A stretch of DNA of 64,000 nucleotides. It comes from an uncultured Gammaproteobacteria bacterium (GTDB lineage: Bacteria; Pseudomonadota; Gammaproteobacteria; Pseudomonadales; UBA5518). Each line of letters starts with the position of its first letter. Positions within the stretch are counted from its first letter, which is position 1. A program made the position numbers and the translations under genes. Below the pieces are notes generated by a model. It did not search any database, had not been told where the DNA came from, and saw only the letters and a list, made by a program, of their open reading frames with translations. Positions 40,320-45,742 of this stretch are shown one piece after another. Location: NCBI GenBank assembly GCA_903928015.1, contig CAIYPF010000065.1, positions 1-64,000 of the forward strand, written 5' to 3'.

Positions 40320-41294
40320 ATGGCGCGATTCATTCTTGGACACGCTTTCCGCTCTCTTGGCGATCGCAACCCGGGCGTGCAGCGCGCCCTCTTCCTGCTT
40401 GACCATGCGTTCTTCAGCGCACTGCTCTGGCTGATCCGTCTTTTACCGCCCGTACCCGCGGCACGTTTCGGCGCCCGTATAGGCGCCTTTCTCGGGCCGC
40501 GATTCAAGAAAAGCCGCGCCCTGGAGGAGAACTTCCGCGTGGCGCTTCCGGAGTTGGACGCCGCAGCCCGTCGAGACGCAGCTCGCGAGGCATGGGGCAA
40601 CGCAGGCGCGGTATTCGCCGAATTCGCGCATCTGGAGGCGATCTCGGATCCGCAAGGCGACGGCCTGGAGGTGCGGATTCTGGGCGAGATCGCCGCATTC
40701 ACGGATTCCACCAAACCGGCCATCTTCGTGCTGCCCCATCAGGGGAACTGGGAAATGTCCGGCGCCGCGATCGTGCGGCAAGGCGTTCCGCTCACCGCAG
40801 TGTATTCACCCCCAACCAACCCCTTGCTCGGCGAACTCCTTCGCAGATGGCGCATCCGTATCGGCTGCGAACTGATCGCGCGCGACGAAAGCATGCGCCC
40901 GATGATCAAGGCCTTGTCGTCGGGGCGTTCCCTCGGAATTGTGATGGACCGGCGCGTCGACAGCGGAAAACCCGTGATGCTGTTCGGCCATCCCAAGCCA
41001 ACCACGCTGGTCCCCGCACGCCTTGCCATACGGTATGGCTACGAGCTCGTGCCTATTCACGTCGAAAGACTGGGCCCGGCGCGTTTCAGGGTGAGCTTTC
41101 ACCCTCCGGTAGCCGTACCCGAGGGCGACGATGAACTGCAGCAAGCGCTGGAGATGACAGAGCAGCTCCATCGTCTCTTCGAGCAATGGATCCGCCAGTG
41201 CCCCGGCAGTTGGTTCGCCTCGAAACGGCTGTGGCCCAAAGAGACCTACACCTCCGCGGCCAAGGCCCCGGACACCAGGAGTGCAATGCCATGA
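40320..41294 (+). CDS. Lauroyl/myristoyl-type acyltransferase (LpxL/M family), with intact HX4E
   Basis: This 324-residue inner-membrane acyltransferase transfers acyl chains, in known members to lipid A, and is anchored by an N-terminal helix (about 28-46). The catalytic dyad is H140 and E145 in LPHQGNWEM, and the later family blocks around RPMIKALSSGRSLGIVMDRR and VPARLAIRYGYELVPIHVER are seen. It overlaps the next gene (ATGA). The acyl chain and acceptor are not set by sequence; phospholipid or ornithine-lipid acylation are alternatives to lipid A. Confidence 0.87.
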   Translation: MARFILGHAFRSLGDRNPGVQRALFLLDHAFFSALLWLIRLLPPVPAARFGARIGAFLGPRFKKSRALEENFRVALPELDAAARRDAAREAWGNAGAVFAEFAHLEAISDPQGDGLEVRILGEIAAFTDSTKPAIFVLPHQGNWEMSGAAIVRQGVPLTAVYSPPTNPLLGELLRRWRIRIGCELIARDESMRPMIKALSSGRSLGIVMDRRVDSGKPVMLFGHPKPTTLVPARLAIRYGYELVPIHVERLGPARFRVSFHPPVAVPEGDDELQQALEMTEQLHRLFEQWIRQCPGSWFASKRLWPKETYTSAAKAPDTRSAMP

Positions 41295-41920
41295 GCAACA
41301 GGCCATCGGCTCGCCACGAAGAAGCCTCGATACGGCTCTTCGAGAACAACTTCCTCGAAGCACTGACGCACGTGCACCCTATCGTGCCCCTGCTGTTCTG
41401 GTCACCGGTGGTGGCGTGGCTGCTGTGGAACTCGCGTTCATCCGACACGCTTGGGGCGGGCGGCATCGCACTTGCTGCCGTTGCGGGCGTGGCCGTATGG
41501 ACACTCAGCGAATACCTGTTGCACCGCTTCCTGTTCCACTTCAACGCGACCAGCCGTATCGGCAAATATCTGGTGTTCATGTTCCACGGCGTGCATCACG
41601 ACGCGCCGCGCGACAAATCCCGTCTGGTGATGCCGCCTGCGGGCGCCGTAATCGTGATGTTCTTCCTGTGGCAGCTGTTCGGGCTGGTCGTACCCGAGCC
41701 CTGGCTGGAGCCTTTTCTCGCATTCTTCATCGTCGGTTACCTCTGCTACGACTACATCCACTACGGCACGCACCATTTCCCGATGCGACATCCGGTGCTG
41801 CATTTCCTGAAGGTCTACCACCTGCAGCACCACCATGGCTCGAAGGGGCTTCGCTACGGTGTGAGCTCGCCTCTCTGGGATCACGTGTTCCGCACCTATC
41901 CGCCTGAGGGAGCGCGCTGA
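41291..41920 (+). CDS. Fatty-acid hydroxylase-superfamily membrane protein
   Basis: This 209-residue membrane protein carries the di-iron histidine pattern of the sterol desaturase/fatty-acid hydroxylase family: H78RFLFH83, H99GVHH103, H157YGTHH162 and H177LQHHH182, with four likely helices (near 33-47, 56-72, 117-134, 140-155). It resembles bacterial relatives of the fatty-acid 2-hydroxylase type. It starts in the stop of the first acyltransferase and is followed by a second, so it most likely hydroxylates an acyl chain of the lipid those enzymes build. The substrate is inferred from context. Confidence 0.85.
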   Translation: MSNRPSARHEEASIRLFENNFLEALTHVHPIVPLLFWSPVVAWLLWNSRSSDTLGAGGIALAAVAGVAVWTLSEYLLHRFLFHFNATSRIGKYLVFMFHGVHHDAPRDKSRLVMPPAGAVIVMFFLWQLFGLVVPEPWLEPFLAFFIVGYLCYDYIHYGTHHFPMRHPVLHFLKVYHLQHHHGSKGLRYGVSSPLWDHVFRTYPPEGAR

Positions 41921-41944
41921 ACCATCGCCAAGGGCTGGAGCACG

Positions 41945-42892
41945 ATGGCCGAGCACCTGTTGCTACCCAAACGCCTCGCCAGGGCTTTTCCCAGGCTGGG
42001 AGTCTTGGCGCAGCGCATGGAGTCGGGCTTCCTGCGCGCGCTGGTCGGGCTGCTCCGCATATTGCCGATAGCGTGCTCGTTCGCTCTTGCACGCGGGTGC
42101 ATGCGGATTCTCGGGCCCCTCACGCCGCTCTGGGACAAGGTCTCACGCAATCACGCAATCGCTTTCCCCGAACTCGGTGCAAGCAGTCGCAGGGCGCTGC
42201 GTCGCCAGACCTTTTCGCACCTTGGCGATGCCATCGCAGAACTGGTGCTCGCGCCAGATCTTTACGCGCCGGAAGACGAGCGCATCGAGTGGATTGCCGA
42301 CCCTTCCCTCCTGGACATCCTGGCGGAAGGAAGGCCGATGGTGATGGTCACGGGACACGTCGGCGCTTGGCAGCTCACCAACATGATCTCGCGCCACTGG
42401 GGTATCCCGCTCACCTCGCTGTACGCCGAAGAATCCAACCCGGGGCTCGCCGAACTGATGCTCGAACTTCGCAATGGCCTGGGTTGCCGTTGGCTCCCAA
42501 GCGCTGGCGGCATACGGACCCTGCTTGAGGAGCTGCGCGCGGGGCACTCCGTAGGGCTTGCCTGCGATACACGGATGGATCAGGGAGAGCCCGTTCAGTT
42601 CTTTGGTCATGCGGTGCTGAGCAACACCGTGCCCGCGCGGCTGGCCCTGCGGTTAGGTGCACCACTGGTGCCGGTTCTGGCCGAACGCCTGCCGGGGCAG
42701 CGCTACAGGATCAGCCTGCAGGCCCCTGTCACGGCACCGGATACAGCGCGATCCGCGAGCGAGCAAGCCCTGGAGATGACGGCAGCCATGATGGTCCGCT
42801 TCGAAACCTGGGTAAGGGACACACCCGCCGAGTGGATGTGTCTCTCGAGGCGCTTCACGAAGGAGCAGGACAAGGCCGCACGCTACCAGTAG
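41945..42892 (+). CDS. LpxL-like acyltransferase with HX4Q in place of HX4(D/E)
   Basis: This 315-residue protein is a second family member, only distantly like the first: GHVGAWQLTN holds H138 but position 143 is Gln, not Asp or Glu. Other blocks (TPLWDKVSRNHAIAFPELG, SVGLACDTRMDQGEPVQFFG, NTVPARLALRLGAPLVPV) are intact, so this is not decay. It may have a shifted chemistry, a different acceptor, or a non-catalytic role with the neighbours. It starts 24 bases after the hydroxylase stop. Its end overlaps the convergent mepK by ten bases. Confidence 0.83.
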   Translation: MAEHLLLPKRLARAFPRLGVLAQRMESGFLRALVGLLRILPIACSFALARGCMRILGPLTPLWDKVSRNHAIAFPELGASSRRALRRQTFSHLGDAIAELVLAPDLYAPEDERIEWIADPSLLDILAEGRPMVMVTGHVGAWQLTNMISRHWGIPLTSLYAEESNPGLAELMLELRNGLGCRWLPSAGGIRTLLEELRAGHSVGLACDTRMDQGEPVQFFGHAVLSNTVPARLALRLGAPLVPVLAERLPGQRYRISLQAPVTAPDTARSASEQALEMTAAMMVRFETWVRDTPAEWMCLSRRFTKEQDKAARYQ

Positions 42893-43660: not shown

Positions 43661-45742
43661 ATGAAACACCGCTTTGATCTCGCAACAGTTCTGCTTCTTT
43701 CGTCCTGCCTCGCCCAGCACGTGTTTGCGGCCGAACTCGAGACTGTCGTCGTAACTGCGACCCGCGATACCCGCAACGCCGGTGCTCTGCCGTCCAGCCT
43801 GAGCGCCTTGAGTGCCGCCGAACTCCAGATGATCGGTGCCGTTCACATCAGTGAAGCGCTTGCCCGGGTGCCAGGCACCTGGATCAGCCGCGGCAACGGC
43901 CAGGAAAACCTCACGGCCATCCGCTCGCCGGTGTTCACCGGTGCGGGCAGTTGCGGCGCGTTCTATCTGGCTGAAGACGGCGTTCCGATCCGCCCCAGCG
44001 GCTTCTGCAATGTAAACGCGCTTTCGGAAGTGAATGGAGAGCAGGCAGAGCGCATAGAGGTGCTTCGCGGACCGGGGACAGCCGTGCACGGCGCCAACGC
44101 ACAGCACGGCGTCATCAACGTGATCACGCGAGCACCACCCCGAGATGGCACGGAGCGGGTAATCGCACTCGAGGCCGGGGCGAACGACTACACCCGGCTG
44201 CTGGGCCGACTCGGCGCGGGCGATGCGGATCAAGGCTGGCTTCTCACACTGAACGCCTCGCACGATGATGGCTACAAGAGGAGCTCGGGCTACGAGCAGC
44301 AGAAACTCGGTCTTCGCAACGACCTCGACTGGGACGGCGGGCATTTCTCCTCCCGTTACAGCTTCATGAATCTGGAACAGGACACAGCGGGCTTCATCAT
44401 CGGCGAGGGAAGCTACCGCCGCACCGACACCCGACGCGACAACCCGAATCCCGAATCCTTCCGCGACAACAGGGTGCACCGCTGGAGCGGTGAACTCCGG
44501 CTCGATGGCCCCGGCGAGAGCGAATTCACGCTTAGCCCTTACCTGCGCCACCAGGACATGCGATTCCTGCAGCACTTCCTGCTCGGCGAGCCGCTGGAGG
44601 AGAACGGCGTGGAGGCTGCAGGACTGCAGTCCGCGTGGACGACGCCCATGGGTTCGGAGTCGCGATTGAGTGCCGGCATCGACGGCGAGTGGGCTGAGGG
44701 CTGGCTCAAAGAAACCCAGGCTGCTGCGATACCCGGCAACAGCTCACTGCCCGCGGGCAGGCACTATGACTACCGCGTCGACAGCGCCATGACGTCTGCC
44801 TTCTCGCAACTCGAGTGGCAGGCCCTCCCCCGCACCCGCGTGCTGGCAGGCCTTCGACTCGAACGTCAGGGCTACGACTACGACAACCGCATGATCGACG
44901 GTGCGACACGGGACGATGGCAGCCCCTGCGGGCCGCCCGGCCGCCCGGCGCCCTGCCGCTATTCTCGCCCCGGAGACAGCCGTGACAGTTTCACCGAGTG
45001 GTCATGGAACGCAGGCCTGGTCCACTCACTGGGCGCGGACCAGGATCTGATCCTGAACGCGGGTCGGGGGTTCCGTCCGCCGCAAACAGCAGAACTCTAT
45101 CGCCTCCAGGCCGGGCAACTGACGACCGACATCCAGCCAGAACAGGCTGACAGCATCGAGGCGGGGCTGCGCGGCAGGTTTGGCCCCGCAGACTACTCGC
45201 TTGTCGCCTACGCCATGGAAAAGCACGAGGTCATCTATCAGGACGCTGACCGCCGCAACGTGAGCGGGGCTCGCACGAAGCACCGCGGCTTCGAGTACTC
45301 CGCAGGCTTGCAGCTGGGCGAAAGCTGGCGCCTCTCGGCGGACGGAACCGTGGCGGCTCACCGTTACGACAGTGCGGATCCGCTGCAGGGTCTGCCGGCC
45401 GGCACCGATATCAAGGGCAATGATATCGACACCGCGCCTCGCAATTTCTCGTCGGTGAGGCTGTCATGGGAGGCAAACAGCAAGACCAGCGCGGAACTGG
45501 AGTGGCAGCACATGGGTCGTTACTTCCTCGAACCCACCCAGAGCTTCGACTACCCGGGTCACGACCTGCTGCACCTGAGGGTACGGCATACGGTGGCGCC
45601 CGGCTGGTCTGTCACAGCCCGCCTCAGCAATCTGCTCGACGAGGACTACGCCGAGCGCGCTGACTATGCCTTCGGGGATTACCGCTATTTCGTGGGAGAG
45701 CCCCGCGAACTCTTCCTCGAGATCGCGTGGGAGCAACCCTAG
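43661..45742 (+). CDS. TonB-dependent outer-membrane receptor
   Basis: This 693-residue receptor has a signal peptide (1-23), a TonB box (ETVVVTATR near 27-35), a plug domain (to about 160) and a 22-stranded barrel ending in LFLEIAWEQP with an aromatic near the C-terminus. Four cysteines in the mature protein form two local pairs, C98/C116 in the plug and C423/C432 in a barrel loop, unusual for an outer-membrane protein. The ligand (siderophore, cobalamin or other) cannot be told. No riboswitch was seen in the 226-base upstream gap; TGCTATGAT at 43527 is a possible -10. Confidence 0.92.
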   Translation: MKHRFDLATVLLLSSCLAQHVFAAELETVVVTATRDTRNAGALPSSLSALSAAELQMIGAVHISEALARVPGTWISRGNGQENLTAIRSPVFTGAGSCGAFYLAEDGVPIRPSGFCNVNALSEVNGEQAERIEVLRGPGTAVHGANAQHGVINVITRAPPRDGTERVIALEAGANDYTRLLGRLGAGDADQGWLLTLNASHDDGYKRSSGYEQQKLGLRNDLDWDGGHFSSRYSFMNLEQDTAGFIIGEGSYRRTDTRRDNPNPESFRDNRVHRWSGELRLDGPGESEFTLSPYLRHQDMRFLQHFLLGEPLEENGVEAAGLQSAWTTPMGSESRLSAGIDGEWAEGWLKETQAAAIPGNSSLPAGRHYDYRVDSAMTSAFSQLEWQALPRTRVLAGLRLERQGYDYDNRMIDGATRDDGSPCGPPGRPAPCRYSRPGDSRDSFTEWSWNAGLVHSLGADQDLILNAGRGFRPPQTAELYRLQAGQLTTDIQPEQADSIEAGLRGRFGPADYSLVAYAMEKHEVIYQDADRRNVSGARTKHRGFEYSAGLQLGESWRLSADGTVAAHRYDSADPLQGLPAGTDIKGNDIDTAPRNFSSVRLSWEANSKTSAELEWQHMGRYFLEPTQSFDYPGHDLLHLRVRHTVAPGWSVTARLSNLLDEDYAERADYAFGDYRYFVGEPRELFLEIAWEQP

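Follow-up and report, generated by a model that had tools for sequence, protein, structure and literature searches.

A conserved acyltransferase–hydroxylase–acyltransferase module predicted to tailor ceramide-based lipids in gammaproteobacteria, most of which appear to have lost lipid A

Which lipid is the target when two acyltransferases of the lipid A type enclose a fatty acid hydroxylase? The question is raised by three genes in a 64,000-nucleotide stretch of DNA (positions 1 to 64,000 of contig CAIYPF010000065.1, assembly GCA_903928015.1; hereafter the window) from an uncultured gammaproteobacterium of the order Pseudomonadales. The first, AT1 (40320..41294, + strand), encodes an LpxL/HtrB-family acyltransferase of 324 aa; the second (41291..41920, + strand) a membrane di-metal fatty acid hydroxylase of the FA2H/SCS7 type, 209 aa long and referred to below as FA2H; and the third, AT3 (41945..42892, + strand), another LpxL-family protein, of 315 aa. 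Against the curated cut-off of 22.3 bits, the Pfam model Lip_A_acyltrans (PF03279) scores 149.5 bits on AT1 and 116.2 bits on AT3, and FA_hydroxylase (PF04116) scores 60.8 bits on the middle gene (cut-off 31). The initial annotation had described a single operon that adds and then hydroxylates an acyl chain, perhaps on lipid A or an aminolipid. A module for acylation and hydroxylation is indeed what the two PF03279 proteins flanking a PF04116 hydroxylase predict from their families, and the genome neighbourhood survey that was to look for the same triplet elsewhere recovered it in several families.

The view of the triplet as one conserved operon is confirmed by its layout. An ATGA overlap joins the stop codon of AT1 to the start of the hydroxylase gene, a gap of 24 bp separates the hydroxylase stop from the AT3 start, and the gene order is kept across several families, so chance adjacency was ruled out. 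The list of open reading frames also offers an upstream ATG for the hydroxylase at 41186; the orthologues all begin at the position corresponding to 41291. Promoter and terminator scans found nothing. The genomes compared, designated here by G numbers with G000 for the window genome, are all drafts and many are metagenome-assembled (MAGs), including the source of two of the congener records. The order AT1-FA2H-AT3 is found in the congeners G004 and G005 (where a contig end cuts it) and in G045, G201, G517 and G725, and G235 carries an AT1-FA2H pair with no adjoining AT3. Two further congeners, G001 and G002, had been scored as lacking FA2H by the automatic search. This was dropped, as contig ends cut the triplet in these genomes: certainly in G001, where it lies in pieces at contig ends, and less surely in G002, where pieces of AT1 and AT3 are seen at contig ends and FA2H is not. 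Compared with G004, which has the closest fully sequenced triplet, the window proteins are 76-84% identical, with dN of 0.11-0.19 and dS of 1.1-1.9 for the three genes. These ratios far below 1 indicate from the sequences that purifying selection maintains all three.

The genes around the triplet were named from the appearance of their sequences. A YgiQ-type radical SAM gene lies 98 bp upstream of AT1, a DUF882-like gene lies downstream of AT3 on the opposite strand, and a TonB-dependent receptor-like gene occupies window positions 43661-45742, also downstream. The YgiQ-like and receptor-like genes are syntenic with the triplet in G004 (locus L008). The L008 record, CAMAXE010000001.1, is a MAG labelled Klebsiella pneumoniae, wrongly as to species, since it is clearly related to the window genome.

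The closest sequence in the PDB to the product of the middle gene is yeast SCS7 (4zr1, phmmer E 2.4e-29), and all ten histidines aligned with those of SCS7 are present (H244, H249, H268, H271, H272, H326, H330, H345, H348 and H349) and invariant among the orthologues. From the 4zr0 structure, we take these ten positions to be the di-metal ligands. An AlphaFold2 model of the protein (mean pLDDT 68.5) has SCS7 structures as its sole significant Foldseek matches: the top four are all 4zr0/4zr1 (E 2e-8 to 8e-8, TMq 0.69, rmsd 4.6-5.1), the best being 4zr0 at E 2.4e-8 and TMq 0.69. Since SCS7 is the closest solved relative by both sequence and fold, assignment to the OlsE or sterol-desaturase type was rejected. 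The window enzyme shares with the SCS7/FA2H proteins of yeast and mammals the hydroxylase core, the histidine ligands, the RLVMPP and GVSS-LWD motifs and the fold. It differs from them in being bacterial, in being apparently co-transcribed with acyltransferases and in having no cytochrome b5 domain, Pfam finding the hydroxylase domain alone in its 209 aa; its activity is predicted. LpxO and OlsC-type 2-hydroxylases, which hydroxylate acyl chains of outer-membrane lipids, are Fe/2-oxoglutarate enzymes unrelated to the FA2H type. The window enzyme is instead a His-rich membrane hydroxylase, and its distinctness from LpxO, proposed initially, is borne out by Pfam, which matches PF04116 alone and not the LpxO domain PF05118. 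SCS7 itself is the ceramide very-long-chain fatty acid hydroxylase of yeast, and ceramide fits its active site; myxobacteria possess functional FA2H homologues, and enzymes related to FA2H may dispense with the fused domain by using a separate cytochrome b5 (reviewed in PMC10002949).

More distant FA2H relatives (37%) are found on plasmids of Acidisoma (L123, 3824-7754) and Novosphingobium (pLA5; L122, 5026-6606). In both cases the gene adjoins an SDR gene, with LTA-synthase-family genes nearby and no LpxL genes in the vicinity, and in Acidisoma it also lies beside a BioF/Spt-like PLP enzyme and a glycosyltransferase. Judging by gene content, these loci are possibly another sphingoid-type lipid cluster.

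The flanking acyltransferases (ACYLTRANSFERASES) both belong to PF03279 and differ in the catalytic motif, HX4E in one and HX4Q in the other. AT1 has an intact HQGNWE (HX4E, as in 6/6 AT1 orthologues) and a DRRVDSG motif; AT3 retains a DTRMDQG motif and has HVGAWQ, with glutamine in place of the acid. Neither reaches the cut-off of any NCBIfam LpxL or LpxM equivalog. In a maximum-likelihood tree of PF03279 proteins whose bootstrap is not fully settled, AT1 forms one clade (98/93) and AT3 another (100/99), and the two share a branch (100/100) apart from the canonical LpxL proteins of the order. The nearest solved structures to AT1 are LpxM (5kn7) and PatA, and the AT3 model matches LpxM and PatA structures too. 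The PF03279 fold is common to these proteins, to LpxL/LpxM and to mycobacterial PatA, and AT1 shares the HX4E motif with them; the differences are the separate clade, the HX4Q of AT3 and a genome in which the lipid A pathway was not found.

The substitution calls catalysis by AT3 into question. In E. coli LpxL, the E137A change lowers activity by ~3000-fold, and in LpxM the catalytic histidine has a further contact with D192, and E127 forms a pair with R159 (PMC6286764). To judge from its residues, AT3 may be an enzyme of altered function or else a subunit that partners AT1. It is not a decaying pseudogene, a candidate rejected on the grounds that dN is much lower than dS (0.187 against 1.88 in the comparison with G004) and that the motif is invariant. 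A stricter form of the partner idea, in which AT3 is a non-catalytic pseudoenzyme and AT1 alone transfers acyl chains, would refine the preferred explanation given below and is not exclusive of it. It would agree with the strong purifying selection on AT3 and with the distribution of the motif, HX4Q in 9/9 proteins of the AT3 clade versus HX4D/E in the 30/30 other family members from the order. However, the Asp and Arg equivalent to D192 and R159 of LpxM are conserved in AT3, so some catalysis may persist, and two of the nine clade members are standalone paralogues, with no AT1 nearby in the case of G004 (contig C6). On these grounds the pseudoenzyme seems possible but on balance doubtful. The standalone paralogues lie outside any triplet at L098 (4272-5210, G004:C6) and L103 (3581-4606, G005:C295); a standalone AT3 paralogue is 42% identical to the window AT3 and shares HVGAWQ.

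What the module might act upon is suggested by the rest of the genome. All five genes of ceramide synthesis (spt, acpR, aasR, cerR and cerS) are present in the cluster L085 (G000:C143:123000-142900), on a different contig from that of the triplet (C65). Spt scores 590 bits against NF047599 (curated cut-off 500) and its best PDB matches are all serine palmitoyltransferase. The acyl carrier protein gene acpR was read directly from the sequence immediately upstream of spt, and L085 also encodes the fatty acyl-AMP ligase AasR, the epimerase CerR and CerS. AasR, CerR, CerS and Spt are 43-54% identical to proteins of the spt region of E. coli BL21, and the AcpR of G004 is 39% identical to its BL21 counterpart; the Caulobacter counterparts of the set are needed for ceramide synthesis (PMC11324152, PMC9386255). 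Further genes of L085 encode LptF, LptG, an MsbA-like ABC transporter, two ELM1-family proteins, a nucleotidyltransferase and a phosphoesterase. Genes resembling sulfotransferases and glycosyltransferases are seen there as well, and the gene content makes a glyco- or sulfo-sphingolipid pathway probable. The spt region of BL21 (L121 5283-13067, NC_012971.2) likewise has its own copies of lptG and lptF beside spt.

Ceramide clusters are already known from a few gammaproteobacteria, and those of Caulobacter crescentus and E. coli BL21 have the same spt, acpR, aasR, cerR and cerS, LptF/LptG beside spt, and a nucleotidyltransferase (PMC11324152, PMC9386255). In contrast, the descriptions of these clusters (ceramide, CPG2) mention neither an LpxL-family acyltransferase nor FA2H, and in Caulobacter the protein held responsible for hydroxylation is CC_0202, a desaturase/hydroxylase of the DesA family whose gene lies elsewhere in the genome (PMC11324152, PMC9386255).

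The triplet of the window genus lies apart from spt, as does the AT1-FA2H pair of G235. Elsewhere the two are contiguous. In G045 and G201, two genera of one family, aasR-cerR-AT1-FA2H-AT3 form an uninterrupted series on one strand, with 17 bp between CerR and AT1 in G045. In G517 and G725, members of another family found by a class-wide search, AT1-FA2H-AT3-ELM1 sits between msbA and cerS inside the spt cluster, and in G725 AT3 overlaps the ELM1-family gene. Two differing arrangements with ceramide genes imply an association that goes beyond shared descent of one locus, and membership of the triplet in a sphingolipid pathway is well supported by this genomic context.

It is therefore proposed that AT1-FA2H-AT3 is a tailoring module which probably 2-hydroxylates and O-acylates a ceramide-based outer-membrane lipid. 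Spt, AcpR, AasR, CerS and CerR would make (dihydro)ceramide, and the FA2H-type enzyme would hydroxylate its amide-linked acyl chain, C-2 being the likeliest position. AT1 would then move an acyl group from ACP onto a ceramide hydroxyl, be it the 2-OH just formed, the 3-OH of sphinganine or an OH of the head group, perhaps with AT3 beside it as a second acyltransferase or partner subunit. Such a sequence reverses the add-then-hydroxylate order first envisaged, and hydroxylation followed by O-acylation appears at least as likely. Hydroxylation and O-acylation together would yield a ceramide of three or more chains, nearer to lipid A in bulk, which the MsbA-like transporter and the Lpt machinery could carry to the outer leaflet. 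Multi-chain bacterial ceramides have a precedent in phosphoglycerol dihydroceramides with three aliphatic chains, which can be de-esterified to two (PMC3037954).

The main uncertainty of this scheme is the acceptor, which could be the acyl chain, the sphingoid base or, in a PatA-like manner, the head group. In the last case the trio would still belong to the sphingolipid pathway, with AT1 and AT3 acylating a sugar hydroxyl of the head group and FA2H acting separately on the N-acyl chain. In favour of this, the solved structures closest to AT1 and to the AT3 model include PatA, the AT3 gene of G725 overlaps one of the ELM1 family, and the cluster holds sulfotransferase-like and glycosyltransferase-like genes. 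But AT1 is strictly paired with FA2H, which suggests that both act at one site, and in G045 and G201 the trio comes directly after cerR; acylation of the head group with separate hydroxylation is thus considered unlikely. Still less probable is action on another aminolipid, such as ornithine or glycine lipids, with the nearness to ceramide genes being incidental: the separation of triplet and spt in the window genus would fit, but the two different contiguous arrangements in two families and the SCS7-type nature of FA2H, which is no distant member of the hydroxylase superfamily, speak strongly against it.

The remaining candidate, lipid A, depends on whether these bacteria make it. Searches of the window genome (97% complete) found no LpxC, LpxB or LpxK, control genomes giving matches as expected. 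Separate lpxL and lpxM genes, a check on which had been advised at the outset, are not present either: the genome has two PF03279 genes only, AT1 and AT3, which are thus its sole LpxL-family members. LpxC and LpxB are absent from four of the five congeners, including G004 (100% complete), and the genomes recorded without both are G000, G001, G002, G004, G005, G201 (99% complete) and G235; the congener G003 has LpxC, LpxB and Spt and lacks FA2H. An assembly gap affecting LpxC only was rejected, as three families are missing together and both LpxC and LpxB are missing from the complete G004. LptD is present in 11/11 genomes tested, the window genome included. From gene content, LPS appears to have been lost in the window bacterium, and the seven genomes listed are putative LPS-less gammaproteobacteria with Lpt machinery. 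Late acylation and hydroxylation of lipid A, with AT1/AT3 as LpxL/LpxM and the hydroxylase as an alternative to LpxO, can point to the family and structural matches of AT1 and AT3 (PF03279, LpxM, PatA), to the LptD and MsbA-like transporter encoded and to G045, which holds LpxC and LpxB plus the triplet, but it is the least probable reading of all, given the missing LpxC, LpxB and LpxK of the window genome, the lack of LpxC and LpxB in G004 and G201, the branch (100/100) that sets AT1/AT3 apart from canonical LpxL, and a linkage that is to ceramide genes in two families. The suggestion that lipid A is the substrate was accordingly given up as very unlikely on genomic grounds.

The association between module and lipid A loss was also seen in a profile of 392 genomes of the order, a sample to which G517 and G725 do not belong. 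A hydroxylase orthologue was found in 6/392 and LpxC was missing in 13/392; it was missing in 5/6 FA2H carriers versus 8/386 others (Fisher p 1e-7, a value that ignores kinship and overstates independence, since the carriers represent few lineages and the five LpxC-negative ones only about three). When the sample was limited to a completeness of 90% or more and a contamination of 5% or less, the counts were 4/5 carriers versus 3/347 others. Beyond the carriers recognised automatically, G001, with its cut triplet, and G002, with its pieces of AT1 and AT3, are also without LpxC. G159 (97% complete) is another LpxC-negative genome of the order. The co-occurrence of LpxC, LpxB and the triplet in G045 suggests that the module can precede the loss of lipid A and that it is not strictly an LPS substitute. 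The module as predicted belongs to gammaproteobacteria most of which have apparently lost lipid A, and since distant relatives carry the trio within their sphingolipid cluster, it probably decorates a sphingolipid that replaces LPS in the outer membrane.

A sphingolipid in an outer membrane lacking LPS has been established for sphingomonads, according to work cited in PMC11324152. Sphingolipid without LPS would be common to both cases; the hosts here are gammaproteobacteria, and the published descriptions of sphingomonads on which this comparison draws contain no acyltransferase module. In Sphingomonas, 2-hydroxylation is due to a P450 (PMC10002949). Searches of the open-access literature, with subscription papers mostly outside their scope, found neither LpxL-type acyltransferases in sphingolipid synthesis nor LPS-less gammaproteobacteria with sphingolipids. 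No such module was found in them, in line with the initial view of the triplet as undescribed. A bolder formulation, advanced tentatively and at somewhat less than an even chance, is that of a lipid A mimic: gammaproteobacteria that lost the Raetz pathway would have recruited diverged LpxL-type acyltransferases, AT1 and its HX4Q partner acting as a pair, together with a ceramide 2-hydroxylase, making acyloxyacyl ceramides of three or four chains for export by retained MsbA/Lpt-type systems.

If the proposal is true, the type of enzyme that finishes lipid A has been re-used on a sphingolipid scaffold, which would place LpxL-family enzymes outside lipid A metabolism. The lineages described here bear on how some Gram-negative bacteria manage without LPS and on what takes its place: they have apparently given up making lipid A, yet retain LptD and carry a predicted ceramide-bulking module. 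The triplet supplies candidate genes for a sphingolipid outer leaflet and points to sphingolipids as a possible cargo of Lpt and MsbA-type transporters. G045, with both the triplet and lipid A genes, offers an evolutionary intermediate.
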